Source of the DNA: a virus | Direction: 5' to 3' (one strand) | Virus record (IMG/VR): IMGVR_UViG_3300030450_002859 | Coordinates: 1 to 27,139 of that record | Length of the DNA stretch: 27,139 bases | In this document: positions 8,647 through 26,630 of the stretch, piece after piece | How positions within the stretch are numbered: position 1 is the first letter of the stretch | Layout: every line of letters begins with the position of its first letter | Notes under the pieces: generated by a model | Databases searched by the model: none | Told to the model about the DNA's origin: nothing | The model's input: the letters and a program-made list of their open reading frames with translations, nothing else | Program-made: the position numbers and the translations under genes

Positions 8647-9085
8647 TGTAGGGAACGGCGTTTCAAGAGTTATAATGGATACTGATGGCGAACAGGCTAC
8701 AGTTACTAATAATAAGCTTGATGTAAATGCAACATTAGTTGCTGGTGCATCCATTGATATTGGTGATGTTGAAGTTAAAGGCCATTCAAGTATTCAAAGT
8801 TATAGAAACAGAGCAGTTGGAACAAGTGCTGAAATTATAAATGGTGGTTCATCTTCAGGTGGAAGCGGAAATGCTGGGGATTCAATTCCATGTAAACATA
8901 TAGATATTATGGCAGATATAGATAATACAGGTATTATACATGTTGGAGGAAGCGATTTAACTGCAGAGAATGGAATAGCTTTATATCCTGGGGATACATA
9001 TAGCGTAGACATTGATGATGCAAATAAAATTTATGTTTTAGCAAGCGTAGATGCAGAAGATGTTGCATTCGTGGTATATAACTAA
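8639..9085 (+). CDS. Beta-rich virion-type protein (148 aa)
   Basis: This protein has an N-terminal part with short beta segments (ATVTNNKLDVNATLVAGASI), a flexible Gly/Ser linker (NGGSSSGGSGNAGDS, about residues 68-82) and a C-terminal domain with a pattern seen in many phage structural proteins: IPCKHIDIMADIDNTGIIHV, then GGSDLTAENGIALYPGDTYS and IYVLASVDAEDVAFVVYN. That domain is probably a small beta sandwich. It is coupled to the coiled-coil gene by an eight-base overlap (with AAAGGA upstream) and to the next fibre gene by TAATG. It is likely a minor fibre or adaptor subunit. The family name is not known to me. Confidence 0.7.
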   Translation: MADVGNGVSRVIMDTDGEQATVTNNKLDVNATLVAGASIDIGDVEVKGHSSIQSYRNRAVGTSAEIINGGSSSGGSGNAGDSIPCKHIDIMADIDNTGIIHVGGSDLTAENGIALYPGDTYSVDIDDANKIYVLASVDAEDVAFVVYN

Positions 9086-10164
9086 TGGCTAATAGAGTAA
9101 CAAGAAATCACCGTAGAGATGGTATCCAATTTGGAGCAAATGGATATTTATCTTTAGCTGATAATGAAATTGATGTATCGAGTGGCGATTTAACTTTAGA
9201 TGTAGAAGGAGATATAAAATTAGACGCCAATGGAAATTCGATATATTTTGCCGATGGTGCTCAGACTGCTGGATTCGTAGCTATGACGTCAGGTGCAGCT
9301 ACACGTTTAAGACTTTATGAAATGGGTGGAGATTCAGATACTGATTATCTTAATATTGATGTAAAGGAACATGGTGAAACAGATATAAAAACGTCTGACG
9401 TAGCTGGTACAGCTGCTCATATATTAATTCAGCCTGATGGAGATTTGACATTAGACCCAGCATCTCAAAAAATAATTATTAATGCTACAGATAAACTTTA
9501 TCTTGATGGTGGAACCGATACTTATATATATGAAGATGCAGATGATGATTTGAGAATCGTAGTGGGTAATGTTGGTATAATGACGCTTTATCAAACTGCT
9601 GCTGTTGGCGAGAATTATGTATCTATCACTAATTCTAATTTAAGAATACCATCTACACATAAATTGCATTTTGACGGCGGTGGAGATACTTTTATACAAG
9701 AAGTTTCAGCAGATAATCTTAAGTTTGTTGTTGGTGATGACACTGTTCTTGAGCTTACTGAAGCAGGCAATTCAGGCAATCTTGTTAATATGGGCACAAG
9801 TGGTGCAGGCTTTACACAGCATGAACCAACATATGATGCTGCTGATACACAAGTATATTTTGCAAAGCTTGGTAATAAAGCATTTTTAACATTTGGAGCT
9901 GGCGACATAGGTAATATGCTTATATATTTTCCTAATGCATCTTGTAATTGCACATTGGTTATTAAGCAAGATGGAACAGGGAGTAGGACAGTTACTTCTT
10001 GGAAAGCACATGACCAAGCTGCAGGAAATGCAACTAATGTTCAATGGGCAGGTGGCTCTGCTCCTACATTATCAACAGGAGCAAATGCAATAGATATAAT
10101 AAGTTTTTATTGGGATAATGATAATCATACAGCTTATGGGGTAGCAAGTTTAAATTTTAGTTAA
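9085..10164 (+). CDS. Tail fibre-like protein (359 aa)
   Basis: The chain begins with a basic attachment-like segment (MANRVTRNHRRDGIQFGANG) followed by shaft-like beta repeats rich in 'GDLTLD', 'LDGGTDTYIYEDADDDLRIV' and 'LHFDGGGDTFIQEVSADNLK'. The last ~110 residues (from about FTQHEPTYDAADTQVYFAKL) resemble a globular tip with a 'TVTSWKAHDQ ... WAGGSAPTLSTGANAIDIIS' pattern common at the ends of phage fibres. No enzyme motif is visible. The start lies in TAATG and has no Shine-Dalgarno sequence just upstream, so it probably depends on translation of the gene before. It is likely a receptor-binding fibre. Confidence 0.7.
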   Translation: MANRVTRNHRRDGIQFGANGYLSLADNEIDVSSGDLTLDVEGDIKLDANGNSIYFADGAQTAGFVAMTSGAATRLRLYEMGGDSDTDYLNIDVKEHGETDIKTSDVAGTAAHILIQPDGDLTLDPASQKIIINATDKLYLDGGTDTYIYEDADDDLRIVVGNVGIMTLYQTAAVGENYVSITNSNLRIPSTHKLHFDGGGDTFIQEVSADNLKFVVGDDTVLELTEAGNSGNLVNMGTSGAGFTQHEPTYDAADTQVYFAKLGNKAFLTFGAGDIGNMLIYFPNASCNCTLVIKQDGTGSRTVTSWKAHDQAAGNATNVQWAGGSAPTLSTGANAIDIISFYWDNDNHTAYGVASLNFS

Positions 10165-10718
10165 TGGCATTTAAAGATAACATATTAACTTTTGAAGATA
10201 CAAAGATAACTGATACATCATCAGATATTGAAGTAATGATGGATTGGGAAGCGCCGATAATGGAAAAGAGCGCAGAGTTTATATGCCATAATAAAGGAGA
10301 TATATTAGAAATAGGTTTTGGTATGGGAATATGTGCTGATTATATACAAGCACAAGGAGTTAATTCTCATACTATTATTGAAATACATCCACAGATATTA
10401 GAAAGATTAAATACTTGGGCATCAGACAAATCAAATGTTACTATTATTGAAGGAGATTGGAGTTCAGTATCTTTATCTAATACTTATGATGGTATATTTC
10501 TTGATACGTTTGGTGATGATAGTTTAAATAAATTTAAAACTTTTGCATTAGCAAAAATTAAATCAGGTGGAAAAATAACATATTGGAACAATAATGAAGC
10601 AGAGTACAATCCCTATTCATTTGATTCTATTGATTATGAAAAGGTTTCAGTATCTCCATCGGAGAATATGTATACAAATATTGCATCTGATTATTATATG
10701 CCAAAGGTGGAAATTTAA
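10164..10718 (+). CDS. SAM-dependent methyltransferase, GAMT/RMT2-like
   Basis: This 184-residue protein has a class I methyltransferase fold. Residues 48-55 (LEIGFGMG) form the S-adenosylmethionine loop, E73 in HTIIEIHP fits the ribose-binding acid, and 109-116 read DGIFLDTF. The pattern matches guanidinoacetate methyltransferase and yeast RMT2, which methylate guanidino groups: VMMDWEAPIM (24-33), IECN-like strand, LNTWA, YDGI..DT, and near the end SDYYMP. E29 and D114 line up with the two acids that hold the guanidino group in mammalian GAMT (E45, D134). The chain is shorter than human GAMT (236) but keeps all these blocks. It is coupled by TAATG on both sides to fibre-type genes and lacks its own good ribosome site. 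The substrate is unknown; protein arginine or a small guanidino compound are options. Confidence 0.75.
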   Translation: MAFKDNILTFEDTKITDTSSDIEVMMDWEAPIMEKSAEFICHNKGDILEIGFGMGICADYIQAQGVNSHTIIEIHPQILERLNTWASDKSNVTIIEGDWSSVSLSNTYDGIFLDTFGDDSLNKFKTFALAKIKSGGKITYWNNNEAEYNPYSFDSIDYEKVSVSPSENMYTNIASDYYMPKVEI

Positions 10719-11383
10719 TGGCTATCATATATGCAGGTACAAATGATAGTTGGAGAAGAATAACTACTGCTTCATCTTGGTCTGATGCTAGAGGAGATGT
10801 GTCAAGTTCAGCAGGAGCTGGTACTACTTCGGGCAGTTATTATAATTTTGCTCTATATAATAGATATTTTGGAGGTAGGGGAGGAAATAATTATTATTGC
10901 TCAAGAGTTTTTCTTGAGTTTGATTTATCAGGAGAGTCAGGAACTGCGTCATCAGTTGATTTGAAAATTTACAGTGATAATCTCGGGACTAATGCTACAA
11001 ATGAAAAGACAGTTTATGCAGTTCAAGCAACAGCATTGGCAGACAGCAATGATGATTTTGGGAATGTATTTTCAAGTGGAACAACTTTAGGTACATTGTT
11101 AGGGAGTGCAGAAATTTCAACTACTTTAGGATATCATACTATAACACTTAATACAGCAGGAGTAAGTGCTGTAAATAGTGCAATAGGAAGTGGGTCATTA
11201 ATTATTGGAGTTATGGGATATTATGATTATAATAATTCTACACCATCTTTGGGTGGGAATTATGTTCAGCAGCAAGTATATTTTTCTAATTACACAGGAA
11301 CAAGTAGAGACCCGAAATTGGATATAACTTATGCAACGGCAACAGCAGAAGATAATGCAACATTTTTTGGGACAAATTTTTAA
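10718..11383 (+). CDS. DNRLRE-like carbohydrate-binding/receptor-binding candidate
   Basis: This 221-residue beta-sandwich protein has SRVFLEFDLSGESGTASSVD followed by LKIYSDN and a closing DPKLDITYATA. The order 'FDLS ... LKIY ... P.L.ITY' is typical of DNRLRE and related carbohydrate-binding modules found in secreted and surface proteins. The N-terminus (MAIIYAGTNDSWRRITTASS) is short, and the C-terminus ends in NATFFGTNF. Its place as the last gene of the fibre block, right after the methyltransferase, suggests a glycan-binding tip or accessory fibre. The start is TAATG with AAAGGTGG upstream. Family membership comes from pattern memory; a plain fibre tip domain is the alternative. Confidence 0.6.
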   Translation: MAIIYAGTNDSWRRITTASSWSDARGDVSSSAGAGTTSGSYYNFALYNRYFGGRGGNNYYCSRVFLEFDLSGESGTASSVDLKIYSDNLGTNATNEKTVYAVQATALADSNDDFGNVFSSGTTLGTLLGSAEISTTLGYHTITLNTAGVSAVNSAIGSGSLIIGVMGYYDYNNSTPSLGGNYVQQQVYFSNYTGTSRDPKLDITYATATAEDNATFFGTNF

Positions 11384-11397
11384 AGGAGCTTTTTGAA

Positions 11398-12183
11398 ATG
11401 GGAAGAAAAAAGAAAGGCGTTGTAAAACGTGCTATTATCACACCTGATAAACATTTTCCATTAGCTGACATAGCAGCTATAAATTGTGTTAAAAGGGCTA
11501 TTGAAATTGTGAAACCTGATATATATGTTGATTTAGGTGATGTTGGAGAATGGCACGGAAGTTCTCATTGGCAATGGAAAAAGAAAAAACGACCTCCTTT
11601 AGAATATCAGTTACCCTTTATTGAAGATGATATTGTTGAAGTAAATAAAGGAATGGATATGATTGATGAATCTCTTGATAAGGCAAATTGTAAAGAGAGA
11701 TATATCACAGAAGGAAATCACGATGATTGGATGAATAGATTTGTTGAAGAACATCCATATTTAGAAAGGTATAGGTTTGATAAATGCGTAAAGCTAAAGG
11801 AAAGAGGATACAAGTATTACCCCATGGGCAAGTATCTAAAAATTGGAAAGTTAGTAATGTATCATGGACATCACTTTGCTGGTATACAACACACACGCAA
11901 TCATCTGATGAGGTTAGGATGCAATGTTATGTACGGACATCATCATGATATTCAACAAAGTTCAGTCACTCATATTGATGGGCAAAAATCAGCTTGGAGT
12001 TTGGGTTGCCTTAAAGATATGTCAGCTGAACAAAACTCATGGCTTGGTGGTAGAAAGCATAATTGGAGCCATGCATTTGCCATTGTTGATTTCTTTAATG
12101 GCGGGTTATTTACTGTCCATGTTATACAAATTATAAATGGAATGACCTCATTATGGGGTGAAGTTATAGATGGGAATAAATGA
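11398..12183 (+). CDS. Calcineurin-like metallophosphoesterase
   Basis: This 261-residue protein carries the metal-binding motifs of the family in order: D17-x-H19 (TPDKHFP), GD at 47-48 (DLGDVGEWH), GNHD at 106-109, H156 in YHGHHFAG, and GHHH at 180-183. These residues hold two metal ions that cleave phosphoesters. Family members include nucleases (Mre11/SbcD type), protein phosphatases and nucleotide phosphodiesterases. There is no coiled-coil or ATPase partner gene, so an SbcCD-type pair is unlikely. The start has AAGGAGC upstream. It follows the fibre genes and overlaps the next membrane protein gene by ATGA. Similar genes occur in phages, but the substrate cannot be read from the sequence. 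Confidence 0.85.
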   Translation: MGRKKKGVVKRAIITPDKHFPLADIAAINCVKRAIEIVKPDIYVDLGDVGEWHGSSHWQWKKKKRPPLEYQLPFIEDDIVEVNKGMDMIDESLDKANCKERYITEGNHDDWMNRFVEEHPYLERYRFDKCVKLKERGYKYYPMGKYLKIGKLVMYHGHHFAGIQHTRNHLMRLGCNVMYGHHHDIQQSSVTHIDGQKSAWSLGCLKDMSAEQNSWLGGRKHNWSHAFAIVDFFNGGLFTVHVIQIINGMTSLWGEVIDGNK

Positions 12184-19961: not shown

Positions 19962-22900
19962 ATGGCTAACAAGACATATAAATATACAAGCGATGAATTT
20001 ATAAATTATTTAAGAAATGATGACCCTGTCTTTCAAAATTCTTTCCATCAAAATTTACCTGATGAAGAATTGTATAGACTTGGAATGAGAACATATAGCA
20101 ATTATGCTGACCAAGTTGAGCCGTTAACTCCTATTGAAAAACCTGATGTAGATGTGTCTCCTGGTTGGTTTGACTCTATTCCTAGATACGGTATAGATGA
20201 GAACTCTCCTGATTTTATGAAGTCTGCTTATGCAAATTCTTTACAAGGGATGCTTGACCTTTATGAAGATGGTAGATTACCTTTTGAATATGAAGAGTAT
20301 GATTTAAATATTTTAGAACAACTTGGTGCTGGTATTATGGGACTAGCTATGCCATTAGATGCACTTACCATGTTTGGCGGTGGTGGAGTTGTTGGTGCAG
20401 GAATCAAAAAAGCAGCAACAAAAACATTAGGTCAAAAAGCATTCCAAAAAGAAATATCCGATAAAGCTTTTAAAAAGAAAGCTCTTGAAGCATTGACAAG
20501 TAAAGGTCTTGACCAAACAAGAGCAGCAGACATATTTAATAGAATGGTAGGAAGTGGTTCACAGTTTGCTGTGTATGAAGGTGCTAAAGGTGGAGTTGGA
20601 GCAGCTTTAAATGGAGAAGATGTAAAACAAGGAGTGTTTCATGGAGTTGTTCATGGTGGTACTTTAGGTGGCGTATTAGGACTTACAGGCGGAGTTCTTG
20701 GTAACTTTTATAAAGAACTATCGGCAGCAAAAAATATAAAGGCAGGAACGTTATTTCCTAAGACTCCTGGATTAACAGGTGGTGCAAAAGCAGCTGAAAC
20801 AAGAACCATAAATGCAGCAACTAACACAAATAAATATGTTAATTGGAGCGATGATGCAATTGAAACATGGATGAAAAGAACGGGTCCTGGTTCTCAATTC
20901 TCAGCAGAAGTAGGAGTTCTTACGGGAGCTGCTCAATTGGATAGATACAAGCAAGGTGAGGAGCTTACTTGGGGCAACTTGTTTAATGATGCATTTTTCA
21001 ATATAGGTTTCGTGGGTACGATGAAGGCTGGTACAAAAGCAGTTGAATCAAGCATGAAAGCATATAGAGGATGGAGAGATACTCTTACTCCTGAAGAAGC
21101 ACGTGCAAAAGAAACATTTGAACGTTATGAAAAAGCTAGTGAAGAAGTATCAAAATCGGTGAATGTTGAAGACGCAACAACTCCTCAAGGCAAAGCTATT
21201 GCTGATGCTATTAAAAAAATGCCAATTGAAGAACTTAAAGCTAACGATTATCAAATATTAAGAGATAAAAAAATTGCGATAGATGAAGCGATAAATAAGA
21301 CTAAAGTATTTGAAGAGCTTATTAAAGATACTGAAAAAATGGGTACATCAGAATTATCTAGGTGGAAAGATAAGATGGGAGAGGTTGCTGAAGTACTTAA
21401 TGGTGCCGAATTAGCATTGGATGAAGTTGCAAAGTCTGGAAAACCTATATTTGCTAAAGAAGAAATTAGTCAAATGAGGTCCGATATACAAAATTATCGT
21501 AAAGCATTAAACAATCAATTGCTTAGAAAAACAGATATTAAAGCGGAAGATGCTAAGGCTGAGCAGCTTGAAATGACAAGCCTTATTAACTTTATAAAAA
21601 CTGAAGGTGTAAAACAAGGTGGTAAAGGTTATAAGCCTACTATCGTAGAAGAGGGAGTGACAAGAGAGGTTCCATTAAAGAATCTTGGAGAATTAAATTT
21701 AGAGCAATTGCAATCAATAGAGTCAAGCCTTGTGCAAGCAGGTACTAAAAGAGTACAGGTTGTTAAAGAAGGGCAAGTACCTTATGAAAACATTAAACTT
21801 GATGTGGAAAGTAAAGGTTTATTAAATAAAGATATTAAATCTGCTTTGCCTGTTGCCGAAAAAAATATAATAATTGAATCTAAGTTAGGAGAGGTAAATA
21901 AAGATATATTATCTTATTCTGCAGATAAACTTAAGACATTACGAGGAACTTCAAAAGATGCTACTACTCAAGCAAAGAATTTATTAGAGTTTTCTGAAAA
22001 CAATATCAATTACAAAGTAAGCGATATAAGAAATTTAAATGAAGTTCAACAAAAAAGTTTAATAGCAGATTATATTAATGATTATTTTGGTTTTAATATA
22101 ATCAATAAAAAAACAGGACAAGCTTTAAAAGAATCGCAAATATTAAAATATTTTAAAAATGATAATGCTAAAACTAAACATGCAATGAGAGAAGTTACTA
22201 GGGTAATTAACTTGCTAAAAGAACACTTTCATCAAGAAGGTGGAATCAAAGATGTAATAGGATTTGATTTGATGAAACCTCAGGGTAAATTATTAAAAGG
22301 ATGGCAGCCATCAAGAATTGCCCAAAGAGAGCTCACTATTACTGGCGGTACAGAAGGACTAGGAAAATTAACTCAATGGGTTAAAAATAACTTCAAAGAT
22401 TATACATCTGAATTTGGAGGTGTTTATAAAAAAGGCAATACTTCTTTAATGATGGAAATGGCAACCAAAGGAAAGATGAGGCCAGGAGAAATACCAAGTG
22501 CAACAGTAAAAGATATTGATGTGCGAGCAGGGACTATTGAAGTTAAAGCTCCTGGAAAAACTGGAAGAACAGTAGCTATTGGCACAGCTCTTGCTAAAAA
22601 ATTGCAAACACATGCAAAGAAAAATAAACTAAAACTAAATGAGCAGCTTTTTGTAAAAGATGTAAAGCAACTTAATGAAGTATTAAAGCAAGTATATGCA
22701 CAAGCTCCTAAAAAATTAATACCTATCATAAAAGATTTATATACAGGAAAGCTTGTCCCTTATGATGCAAGTTTAAAAATGCCTACAGTTAAAGTTGGAA
22801 AATTGACACTTGGAGGAAGCCCTTACACAAGTAGGATTCAAGAATCGTCTATATTTAGAAGATTATTTGGAGATGGAGGTGTAGACCTTGGGCATGCTGA

Positions 22901-25900
22901 GGGAAGAGGTCAAGCACAAGCAAGAGCTAGCTATAAAAAAGCAGGAGATGCTCCGCCTAAATCTCCATTTGGAAAAGATATTGAACCTACTACACCACCT
23001 ACTAAAGGTCCAAGAAGAGATGCTATTGAAACTATAGAACAGGCAAAAGATAGACATTTAGAGATAGCTTATAAAACTAAAAACAAAAAAACAAAAGATG
23101 TTCAAGAAAAAATTGCGGTTGAAAAAGATATAATATTAAAAGCCTTGTCTGAGGGTGAAGGTGCAAAGTTTTTTGAAAGTGAAGCATTAGAAATATTATC
23201 TCGACACAAGCAGACACACATTGATGCATTGAAAGATAAAAACTTAGATGCAAAGAGTGTTGAGTTCCATAAAAATTGGGTTAAAAGTTATGGGGATGTA
23301 GCAAAGACTATATCAAAAGGATTCGCAGGAAAAGATAAGGTTAGACTTTTCAATAGTGAGACTCGACAAAGGATGACGATTGATAATGCTAAAAAGATAG
23401 CATATGCAGCTAGAGATTACCATATAAAGCAAACAGGTATGTGGAAAAAAGGAATGTCTAAATCTGAAAAGTCAAAGATTGAATCTAAACTTATTGAAGA
23501 AAGTGTAGTAGATGCAAAAAAATATAATCTAAAGAAAATATCTGAATTAAACTTAGAGCAAGTTAAAGAACTTGTTGATGGAATAAATGCACGAGAAGCG
23601 GTTAAGCCTGAGTCAAAGTTTGCGATTAGGGAGGCTAAGTTTTTTAAAGAAATGTCTGATAAGTATAAGGACTTATCACGTGATGATATAGCTTTAATGT
23701 TAAGAGACTTAGGGGTTAAAGACGGAGCTGTAAAAAATATTAGAAATATTGAAACATTTGATACTGTTGAAGCAATAATTCATTCAACAAAAGAGCAAAT
23801 GCCTAAATTGGATACATTCACAACTGGTGCTATGGAGCTTGTAAATAATCCTGAGGTAAGAATGCCACGATTTAGAACAACTTCATCAATTTGGCATGGA
23901 TTTGCTCCACTTCTTATTAGGCATAAAAAAACAGAAGCTATAGGTGGTATGCTTATTGATGCAGAGGTTGTTAATGCTAGACATAAAAAACTAGCTACAG
24001 AAACAATTGAGTCTGTAATGCCTAAAGTAAAAGAAGCTGGGTTTAAACATAATGAAGCATATATGTTTATGTTTATAGATAAAAAAATGTATACAGGAGA
24101 GAATGCAAAATTTCTATCTCCAAGAGAAAAGAAATTTATAGACATGATGAACGATAAGAAGCCTAATCCTATCAATACTGCGGTGGCTGAAATAAATAGC
24201 ATGTATAAGAGATATTGGGAAAAGGCTAAAGAGGTTGTTATAAGCTCTGATTGGGCATCCAAGATGAAGCAAGAAGATTATATCAACTACCTCAACCAGA
24301 AACATCTTGAAAACTATTATACAAGAAGGGTTAATCCTAAAGTGCTCGATGCATTGCAAGATAGAAAAGGTAATGTTTGGATGGGAATATTCAACAAGAA
24401 TCTTGATGCAGAAATAGCAAAGATGAAAAGAAAGACTGATAAAAAAGGTAAGTTTATTGAAACTCAAGATGCATTCAAATTGAGAAAAGCAGAAAAAAGG
24501 AAAGATGATAATCTTAGAAAAAAAATAGAAAAAGATATGGATAGATTTTTCTTTTCAGCAGGAACTCGTGTTGATTTTAGTTTTATGAAAAATAGAAAGT
24601 TTGACTTACCAAGAAAAATTGAAATTGAAGTTAAGGACAGAGATGGCAATGTAAAAGGAATGAAAGAGGTTAACTCTTACATAGAAAAATTTGATGCTAT
24701 TGTTGGGTATTATGGTGTTGGAATGTCAAAGCTTTTAACAATGTTAGAATATTTCCCTGAGTTTACAACTGTAGGTCAAAAATTTGGAGGAGGACAATTA
24801 AGCACAAATATGTTTAAGCTCATGGAAGGTAAAAATAGTGAGCTTGGGGTCAATGCAGAATGGGCTAATTTTATTAAGATGGGATTAGAGAATTACTTAG
24901 GCTTAGGTGGGCAAAGAGGAAATGTTCCGCTTAAAAGAAATCTAGGTATTATATCATCAACAAGTGCTGCTATTGGCTTATCATCTCCTACATCAGGTCT
25001 TAAAAACTTAGCAATTGGTATACCTCGTTCAATTGGTCATTTTGGATATGCAAATACATTGAAAGCTTTATATAGATTTGCTACAAACAATGAAGATTTG
25101 ATGAGAAGAGATTTGAACTGGGTAAAAGATTATGGTTCAAAACAATTAGTATTAGAAGCTCAAGAAACTGCATTTGAAAGACTTCCATTTATAGGACATA
25201 AGCTTACGATGGATAATCTTTTCACATTTAATGCAATGACAAAAACAGAGGGTATAAATCGTATTGTTTCATCATATGCTGGGAATATGGCTTTTGAGCA
25301 AATGAATGCAGCTTATCATGGACGAGGTAAAACAGGTATGTTAATGATGGGCGGTAAGAAAGAGATACTAAGAACATATAAAGATGTATGGAAATTGAGC
25401 GAAAAAGAAATCAAGTATATAACTGAAACTCCCTATGAAAATCTTAACACTAAAAATAAAAAGCTTATGGATTTTATAACTCTTAAGGTTCAAGCTTATT
25501 CACATATAGCTACTCAAGGTTCTACATCTGCCGCTCTTTTACCTAAATGGATGTCAAACGATTATGCCAGACCTTTAACTTTATTCCAAAGAATGGCATG
25601 GTCAACAACTAATGATATTGCAACTAATTACTTAAAGCCTTTAAGGAACTTTCAAAATCCTATGCCAATATTAAGAGCTACACTTGCTCATGGATTAACA
25701 GGAGCAGCATTGTATAAGTTTTATGAAAAAATTATGGGTTATGAAGTTCCTGAGCAATTACGAGACAATACTGATATAAGAAAATGGTTGCCTTACTTAT
25801 GGCGTTCTGAGTTTTTTGGATTGTTTGGCGAGTTCTTTAACCCTCACTCATCACATTTATATGATAAAAATAAAGGGTTTTTAGATTTATTTGGAAGTGA

Positions 25901-26630
25901 TGCAACTCAGTCCAGAGGATTATTAGAACCTGTTATTATAAGAAATGCAGCAGTGCTTTTAGAGAATGGTTCTGAAATATTAAAAGCTGTGGCACCTTTT
26001 GACTTTGGAGGTAAGCAAACCAAACTTGCAAGACAAGCAGTTAAAGACCTTACAACACAATCTATAGTAGTAACAGGACAATTATCAAGAATATATGACA
26101 ACTATCGCTCATCTGATTTAAAGTCTCATAGAAAATTAAAGCATGTATCAAGAGAATTTATGAAGCTAAAAGGCAAAACATTCCCAAGAGCTATGATTCA
26201 AAACTTCAGAGCACCTTATTATAGAGATTTGAAAGATAGTTTTTGGCATAAGAACGAACAAGAATGGGCAAGGACATATTGGAATGCATATAATTATATA
26301 GTAACAGAATATCAAAATGAAGGATACCACCCCCATGCTGCTCATAAGAAAGCAAAGACAACTATAAAACAATCTTTATCTTATATGAATCCTGTTAAGC
26401 AATTCTCAGAAGACTCTAAGGGTAGAGTTATATCAAAAAAAGCAGAATACTTAAATTTCTTAAAAAAGAATGCACCTGATAAGTATAAAGAAGCTCTTAG
26501 GTTAGAAAAAGAATTTGAATTTAGAATGAGGAAAATAGAGAGCATTGTTGGTAAGTATCAAAAAAGATATTCTGTTTTTCCTATGGGTCCAAAGGCTAAA
26601 TATACAGGTAAATACTTCGGTATATATTAA
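19962..26630 (+). CDS. Giant internal virion protein (2222 aa) with an embedded tyrosine-recombinase-like domain
   Basis: This is the largest gene in the window and probably the main ejection protein. Residues 1-110 are polar. Glycine-rich hydrophobic segments follow near 118-150 and 195-245 (LGAGIMGLAMPLDALTMFGG, GVVHGGTLGGVLGLTGGVLG), which may insert into membranes. Residues 370-760 are helical. Residues about 760-995 resemble a tyrosine recombinase (separate entry). Residues 1000-1300 are Lys-rich. The C-terminal third (about 1640-1930) has LGIISSTSAAIGLSSPTSGL and YARPLTLFQRMAWSTTNDIA, similar in style to domains at the ends of 'large polyvalent' phage proteins. The start has AAGGA 11 bases upstream, with a four-codon ORF between. 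It ends against a - strand gene. No lytic transglycosylase motif is visible. Confidence 0.75.
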   Translation: MANKTYKYTSDEFINYLRNDDPVFQNSFHQNLPDEELYRLGMRTYSNYADQVEPLTPIEKPDVDVSPGWFDSIPRYGIDENSPDFMKSAYANSLQGMLDLYEDGRLPFEYEEYDLNILEQLGAGIMGLAMPLDALTMFGGGGVVGAGIKKAATKTLGQKAFQKEISDKAFKKKALEALTSKGLDQTRAADIFNRMVGSGSQFAVYEGAKGGVGAALNGEDVKQGVFHGVVHGGTLGGVLGLTGGVLGNFYKELSAAKNIKAGTLFPKTPGLTGGAKAAETRTINAATNTNKYVNWSDDAIETWMKRTGPGSQFSAEVGVLTGAAQLDRYKQGEELTWGNLFNDAFFNIGFVGTMKAGTKAVESSMKAYRGWRDTLTPEEARAKETFERYEKASEEVSKSVNVEDATTPQGKAIADAIKKMPIEELKANDYQILRDKKIAIDEAINKTKVFEELIKDTEKMGTSELSRWKDKMGEVAEVLNGAELALDEVAKSGKPIFAKEEISQMRSDIQNYRKALNNQLLRKTDIKAEDAKAEQLEMTSLINFIKTEGVKQGGKGYKPTIVEEGVTREVPLKNLGELNLEQLQSIESSLVQAGTKRVQVVKEGQVPYENIKLDVESKGLLNKDIKSALPVAEKNIIIESKLGEVNKDILSYSADKLKTLRGTSKDATTQAKNLLEFSENNINYKVSDIRNLNEVQQKSLIADYINDYFGFNIINKKTGQALKESQILKYFKNDNAKTKHAMREVTRVINLLKEHFHQEGGIKDVIGFDLMKPQGKLLKGWQPSRIAQRELTITGGTEGLGKLTQWVKNNFKDYTSEFGGVYKKGNTSLMMEMATKGKMRPGEIPSATVKDIDVRAGTIEVKAPGKTGRTVAIGTALAKKLQTHAKKNKLKLNEQLFVKDVKQLNEVLKQVYAQAPKKLIPIIKDLYTGKLVPYDASLKMPTVKVGKLTLGGSPYTSRIQESSIFRRLFGDGGVDLGHAEGRGQAQARASYKKAGDAPPKSPFGKDIEPTTPPTKGPRRDAIETIEQAKDRHLEIAYKTKNKKTKDVQEKIAVEKDIILKALSEGEGAKFFESEALEILSRHKQTHIDALKDKNLDAKSVEFHKNWVKSYGDVAKTISKGFAGKDKVRLFNSETRQRMTIDNAKKIAYAARDYHIKQTGMWKKGMSKSEKSKIESKLIEESVVDAKKYNLKKISELNLEQVKELVDGINAREAVKPESKFAIREAKFFKEMSDKYKDLSRDDIALMLRDLGVKDGAVKNIRNIETFDTVEAIIHSTKEQMPKLDTFTTGAMELVNNPEVRMPRFRTTSSIWHGFAPLLIRHKKTEAIGGMLIDAEVVNARHKKLATETIESVMPKVKEAGFKHNEAYMFMFIDKKMYTGENAKFLSPREKKFIDMMNDKKPNPINTAVAEINSMYKRYWEKAKEVVISSDWASKMKQEDYINYLNQKHLENYYTRRVNPKVLDALQDRKGNVWMGIFNKNLDAEIAKMKRKTDKKGKFIETQDAFKLRKAEKRKDDNLRKKIEKDMDRFFFSAGTRVDFSFMKNRKFDLPRKIEIEVKDRDGNVKGMKEVNSYIEKFDAIVGYYGVGMSKLLTMLEYFPEFTTVGQKFGGGQLSTNMFKLMEGKNSELGVNAEWANFIKMGLENYLGLGGQRGNVPLKRNLGIISSTSAAIGLSSPTSGLKNLAIGIPRSIGHFGYANTLKALYRFATNNEDLMRRDLNWVKDYGSKQLVLEAQETAFERLPFIGHKLTMDNLFTFNAMTKTEGINRIVSSYAGNMAFEQMNAAYHGRGKTGMLMMGGKKEILRTYKDVWKLSEKEIKYITETPYENLNTKNKKLMDFITLKVQAYSHIATQGSTSAALLPKWMSNDYARPLTLFQRMAWSTTNDIATNYLKPLRNFQNPMPILRATLAHGLTGAALYKFYEKIMGYEVPEQLRDNTDIRKWLPYLWRSEFFGLFGEFFNPHSSHLYDKNKGFLDLFGSDATQSRGLLEPVIIRNAAVLLENGSEILKAVAPFDFGGKQTKLARQAVKDLTTQSIVVTGQLSRIYDNYRSSDLKSHRKLKHVSREFMKLKGKTFPRAMIQNFRAPYYRDLKDSFWHKNEQEWARTYWNAYNYIVTEYQNEGYHPHAAHKKAKTTIKQSLSYMNPVKQFSEDSKGRVISKKAEYLNFLKKNAPDKYKEALRLEKEFEFRMRKIESIVGKYQKRYSVFPMGPKAKYTGKYFGIY
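22239..22946 (+). other. Tyrosine-recombinase-like domain inside the giant protein (residues about 760-995)
   Basis: The ordered catalytic pattern of tyrosine recombinases can be read in frame. Box I is MRPGEI with R840, followed by DIDVRAGTIEVKAPGKTGRT, the beta hairpin that carries the catalytic lysine (K862 or K866). Box II has YTSR (955-958), a Y-x-x-R form of HxxR, then RRLFGDGGVDLGH with H978, and Y991 in ASYKKAG. Spacing from R958 to H978 (20) is near normal; H978 to Y991 (13) is about four longer than usual. The helical region before it (about 710-790) could be a core-binding domain. All six key positions have an allowed residue, so activity is possible but unproven. Residues around LGH are unusual (AEGRGQAQAR). 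Confidence 0.55.

Follow-up and report, generated by a model that had tools for sequence, protein, structure and literature searches.

What does a methyltransferase encoded in the middle of a phage fibre operon modify? The question is raised by the window, by which we mean the whole 27,139-nucleotide stretch analysed here (IMG/VR record IMGVR_UViG_3300030450_002859, positions 1 to 27,139), where a gene resembling guanidinoacetate methyltransferase (GAMT) lies between two fibre-type genes, with TAATG as the junction at both of its ends (Table 1). Judged from sequence, the locus suggests that one arginine of the adjacent tail-tip protein is methylated by a GAMT-like marine phage enzyme. The basis for this reading is computed: a GAMT-like fold, conserved acids, coupled genes and an evolutionary link to one specific residue. 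Taken together, these lines make it likely, in our estimation, that a GAMT-fold guanidino N-methyltransferase methylates Arg54 of the adjacent CBM96-like tip (adhesin) protein.

Table 1. Coordinates of the methyltransferase gene, its neighbours and the residues discussed in the text.
Feature	Position in window	Strand	Basis
Upstream tail-fibre protein, 359 aa, with a C-terminal domain common to relatives	9085..10164	+	PHROG 9017
GAMT-fold guanidino N-methyltransferase (predicted), 184 aa	10164..10718	+	Sequence, alignment, predicted fold
Glu29 codon, pairs with GAMT Glu45	10248..10250	+	Alignment; invariant in 93/93 viral domains
Asp114 codon, pairs with GAMT Asp134 (proposed catalytic base)	10503..10505	+	Alignment; invariant in 93/93 viral domains
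Candidate substrate: CBM96-like tip protein of 221 aa	10718..11383	+	Adjacency in 80/95 loci, predicted fold
Arg54 codon, proposed methylation site, in G-R-G-G	10877..10879	+	Lies in the turn that joins predicted strands 41-53 and 56-69

The gene product is best read as a guanidino N-methyltransferase that uses SAM and has the GAMT fold. The initial annotation had arrived at a GAMT-like assignment by way of four motif blocks (VMMDWEAPIM, LEIGFGMG, DGIFLDTF and SDYYMP), all of which are found in the 184-aa translation, and the kinship is borne out by sequence and fold alike. The best PDB matches by phmmer are four GAMT sequences (9.2e-15 to 2.4e-14), and the first match outside this group is an rRNA methyltransferase at 0.027. 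The structural model that the annotation had called for, built with AlphaFold2 from 64 aligned sequences (mean pLDDT 96.3), has the GAMT fold: VIA-align places human GAMT (3orh, Z 23.1) and rat GAMT (1xcj, Z 22.9) at the top over 181-182 residues, with NodS as the next family (Z 16.2). GAMT is also the top match by Foldseek, with CARM1 and PRMT1 further down the list (E 4e-6 to 8e-6). We dropped identification as an rRNA or generic methyltransferase because the Pfam and NCBIfam matches are partial: RrnaAD scores 28.1 bits (Pfam cut-off 24) over residues 43-128 only, and the NCBIfam ksgA equivalog reaches 29.9 bits where the cut-off is 171, short of a full-length match. PHROGs returned no family for the enzyme.

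The resemblance extends to the active site. Glu45 of GAMT is the residue that binds the guanidino group, and the annotation had assigned E29 and D114 of the phage enzyme to the positions of the guanidino-binding acids; counted along rat GAMT in the phmmer alignment, the two residues do pair with 45 and 134. Asp134 of GAMT is proposed to remove a proton from guanidinoacetate (PMC12471008).

Relatives of the enzyme are widespread in IMG/VR, where a first scan fetched 66 and a profile scan confirmed 491 (80 kept). One of 50,697 GenBank phage records has a relative, a 634-kb uncultured phage in which two fibre-like genes, coding for 762 and 1169 aa, lie ahead of the methyltransferase. Cellular relatives number 126 confirmed, with 80 kept. 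The resulting alignment comprises 93 viral domains, 80 cellular ones and 1 GAMT, 174 distinct domains in all, divergent enzymes scoring 36-43 bits having been left out of the viral rows. Loss of either acid in close relatives had been named beforehand as grounds for abandoning the assignment; both are retained in every one of the 93 distinct viral domains. Among the 80 cellular relatives, the E29 column reads E in 43, Q in 34 and L in 3, and the D114 column D in 44 and H in 36; the subgroup in which the acids are exchanged for Q (34/80) and H (36/80), represented by L080, L091 and L129, suggests a different substrate. All 35 viral rows of the enzyme tree fall in one clade (support 92/79) outside GAMT, and rat GAMT clusters with two bacterial rows, L147 and L138. 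GAMT-like domains are also carried at the C-termini of NRPSs in Nitrospira, Nostoc and others (L074, L083, L084 and L129 among them).

The divergent enzymes (L262:6895-7449, L332:5366-5914, L339:5327-5908 and L378:5386-5727) are placed between a fibre gene and a member of another tip-protein family. All of them keep E29, and D114 is kept wherever the sequence reaches it. In this second tip family, R-G is present both with and without the enzyme.

The coupling by TAATG to fibre-type genes on both sides, pointed out in the annotation, stands on closer inspection of the neighbours. The product of the upstream gene matches PHROG 9017 ('tail fiber protein', 1.4e-6), and that of the downstream gene has the predicted fold of a polysaccharide-binding module (see below). 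Related phages likewise keep the enzyme beside fibre genes: of 95 distinct loci, 80 have a CBM96-like tip gene next to the enzyme, downstream in 79 and upstream in one, and a model of the fibre C-terminus matches the gene immediately upstream in 60 of the 95. Five of the 15 loci that have no tip gene (L042, L162, L200, L212 and L213) end at a contig edge right after the enzyme. The remaining ten have different neighbours, chiefly fibre-like or tail genes, with L061, which has no tail gene beside the enzyme, as the clear exception. One of the ten, L055, is cut on its upstream side. Because these ten loci continue past the enzyme and have neighbours other than the tip protein, the substrate would not be the same everywhere.

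Several other features of these neighbourhoods were recorded. Glycosyltransferases and an FkbM methyltransferase lie near the enzyme at L046:5610-9218, and a 2OG-Fe(II) oxygenase and a glycosyltransferase at L057:4954-7884; both gene sets resemble a tail-modification cassette. Just 3' of the tip gene, the window encodes a metallophosphoesterase (11398-12183; PHROG 221, 3.8e-21), a gene that is tied to fibre loci in relatives too. A 2222-aa open reading frame occupies 19962-26630, and a 970-aa protein yielded no relatives in a single-protein scan.

The AlphaFold model of the tip protein (pLDDT 93.6) matches chondroitin-/alginate-binding modules, namely 8wab (Z 16.8) and the alginate-binding 7vbo (Z 15.5), with the next structure at Z 10.2. 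The model thus has the fold of a polysaccharide-binding module of CBM96 type, although sequence identity to these two structures is 15% and 11%, respectively, sugar binding is a prediction, and the Pfam CBM96 score is 19.2 bits against a cut-off of 26. R54-G55 forms the turn of a predicted beta-hairpin. Across 40 diverse tip proteins with a mean column identity of 22%, the only invariant residues are Met1, Arg54 and Arg63. No match to the tip protein was found in GenBank phages by tblastn; a single-protein scan with the window protein found no relatives, and one with the L294 tip returned that sequence alone, in two contigs. A C-terminal tail like N-A-x-F-F-G-x-N-F (window 11354-11380) recurs in different tip proteins and may be a tag for attachment or processing that they have in common. 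Homologues of 651-726 aa that are much extended at the N-terminus (L309, L316, L334, L341, L342, L345, L364, L365, L370, L371, L372 and L256) occur at loci without the enzyme, and Q is common at their R54 and R63 columns.

The link between the enzyme and a single residue emerges when tip proteins with and without an enzyme gene are compared. Tip homologues independent of the enzyme were reached via the metallophosphoesterase gene and the fibre C-terminus. The 80 metallophosphoesterase-linked control loci, chosen independently of the enzyme, contain an enzyme match in 8 (one of them divergent) and a tip homologue in 9, two of which have no enzyme. In the discovery set, R54 is present in 81/81 tips with the enzyme and in 3/11 stand-alone tips without it; the corresponding counts for R63 are 80/81 and 11/11. 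A blind scan of 206 tip columns ranks R54 as the most enzyme-linked (Fisher 1.8e-9) and the adjacent G55 second (9e-4), with no association for R63. This association was first found post hoc and was then repeated in a held-out set, retrieved with scan patterns that included R63 and the C-terminal tail and from which R54 was absent. Among the new sequences, R-G occurs in 12/12 tips with the enzyme versus 1/6 stand-alone tips without it (7e-4), and R54 alone in 12/12 versus 3/6 (0.025).

When both sets are combined, R54 is found in 93/93 tips with the enzyme versus 6/17 stand-alone tips without it (Fisher 2.9e-11), and the R-G pair in 90/93 versus 3/17; these counts include some near-copies in both groups. 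The 17 enzyme-less tips exclude 14 fused proteins (12 from the discovery set, plus L448 and L449). With fused forms included, R54 occurs without the enzyme in 5/23 (discovery set, 12 fused) or 7/31 (all 14 fused). Eight tip fragments (L399, L402, L419, L425, L428, L429, L439 and L456) enter no count: they have fewer than 600 bases upstream and no enzyme is seen there.

The same pattern is evident on the tip tree (110 stand-alone proteins, columns 53-57 masked). Enzyme-less tips form 11 lineages amounting to 16.5% of the tree length, and all seven R54 losses fall within them (binomial 3.3e-6); on this unrooted tree a loss cannot be told from a gain. The 92 discovery rows, placed on a tree built with more care, give 8 enzyme-less lineages and 5 losses, again all within those lineages. 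Not all losses carry the same weight: several (L366, L367, L311 and L353/354/356) coincide with a shortened hairpin, so the clean substitutions weigh most. These are R->K in L328/L329, R->K in L415/L417 and R->T in L422; L328 and L018, the most similar pair, share 72% identity (as do L329 and L018) and differ by R->K at position 54. A search of whole contigs found the enzyme gene in 0/11 enzyme-less records, which may be fragments, and in 3/3 positive controls; an earlier check of 24 records, run with no positive control, found none.

The association could also arise from shared descent or host type, with Arg54 serving structure or binding independently of methylation. Consistent with this, R54 is kept in 6 of the 17 enzyme-less tips (L349, L350, L294, L424, L427 and L443), which implies that Arg54 can serve without the enzyme gene or that the enzyme lies outside these fragments, and the second tip family keeps R-G without the enzyme. 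Yet the enzyme-less tips are 11 scattered lineages that hold all of the losses, and besides the adjacent G55 no other column behaves alike; we therefore regard common ancestry or host type as a very unlikely explanation. A host protein might instead be the target during infection, with the place beside the tip gene a convenience of late expression. Host protein methylation does rise in phage-infected Cellulophaga (PMC13288928), but such a target leaves unexplained that, of the neighbour's residues, Arg54 alone follows the enzyme, and we give this possibility slightly less credence still.

The initial annotation had favoured a virion target in the fibres while allowing for a small guanidino compound. 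The former is upheld as far as a virion protein is concerned, in that the tip protein downstream carries the enzyme-linked arginine; it finds no support in the fibre upstream, where an alignment of the last 150 residues from 57 loci shows no invariant arginine, and the upstream C-terminus was rejected as the target on that ground. The same result counts against a different virion protein, for example the upstream fibre, or a number of tail proteins being what the enzyme methylates. Given that the fibre C-terminal model matches the -1 gene at most loci, and that loci lacking the CBM96-like protein often have a fibre-like upstream neighbour, we consider this alternative unlikely rather than negligible. 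As for a small guanidino compound, the enzyme might act as an auxiliary metabolic gene product that converts, for instance, guanidinoacetate to creatine. GAMT is its closest solved structure, and an ocean survey in which nine Arctic virus populations had GAMT (K00542), at an 85.4-fold enrichment relative to microbial homologues, interpreted the viral gene as serving creatine synthesis (PMC11360552). Against this, the amidinotransferase family PF02274 has no member in the 23 enzyme-bearing viral records searched (3/14 control genomes were positive), the records being possibly fragments and the host a conceivable provider of the activity; creatine synthesis was set aside on this result. Moreover, the gene is found inside the fibre operons of very different phages, the enzyme is linked to one arginine of a neighbouring protein, and the viral clade falls outside GAMT. 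The phage GAMT-like gene probably does not make creatine, and action on any small guanidino compound appears highly improbable.

According to the favoured reading, methylation of Arg54 in the tip protein, the enzyme would be translated together with its substrate and would act on an R-G motif located where a predicted beta-hairpin turns; that Arg54 is the methylated residue is what we infer from the evolutionary link. The nitrogen concerned can be proposed by analogy. GAMT methylates the guanidine nitrogen bearing the carbon chain. BlsL, the blasticidin S guanidine N-methyltransferase, does likewise, according to its published description. Because both enzymes act at this position, the phage enzyme would probably methylate the internal (delta) nitrogen, yielding delta-N-methyl-arginine. 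The mark may then tune or protect the carbohydrate-binding adhesin tip, which is a guess. The full proposition, that marine phages possess a dedicated GAMT-lineage arginine methyltransferase that places delta-N-methyl-arginine on an exposed hairpin of their own carbohydrate-binding adhesin, is in our judgement evenly poised between right and wrong.

In the open-licence literature that we searched, no phage-encoded arginine methyltransferase is described as acting on a tail protein. The reading specifies one enzyme, one substrate and one residue, and is therefore testable. If true, it would describe a virus-encoded, virion-directed system of protein arginine methylation, widespread in uncultured phages to judge from the 491 IMG/VR relatives, and would offer a handle on the chemical tuning of adhesins by phages. 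It would also supply a virus-encoded source of virion arginine methylation; a 2026 study describes methylated phage proteins in phages without a known methyltransferase gene (PMC13288928). Adhesin methylation may be what the 'viral GAMT' assigned to creatine synthesis actually does: should the reading hold and the genes of the Arctic survey belong to this family, the creatine assignment of PMC11360552 would be corrected.

In comparison with known systems, the phage enzyme is closest to GAMT, with which it shares the fold, the equivalents of E45 and D134, a GFGM-type SAM motif and the W28-E29 block. It differs in being 29% identical and approximately 45 residues shorter, in belonging to a separate viral clade, and in being encoded in a tail operon without the amidinotransferase partner in the 23 records. 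BlsL, whose authors report low similarity to GAMT, acts on a nucleoside antibiotic intermediate, unlike the proposed phage target. The window enzyme matched a distant homologue, from a cluster with blsE and blsF, at 3e-9 (34% identity over 51% of the query). RMT2, the arginine delta-N-methyltransferase of a yeast ribosomal protein, carries out the same kind of chemistry on protein arginine and, by description, has an IIExHP motif that we take to be similar to that of the phage enzyme. R-G motifs are classic targets of the Type I-III PRMTs; GAMT nevertheless matches the phage enzyme better than these do by a wide margin, in both Foldseek and VIA-align, and the 184-aa protein presumably has no room for the PRMT beta-barrel.
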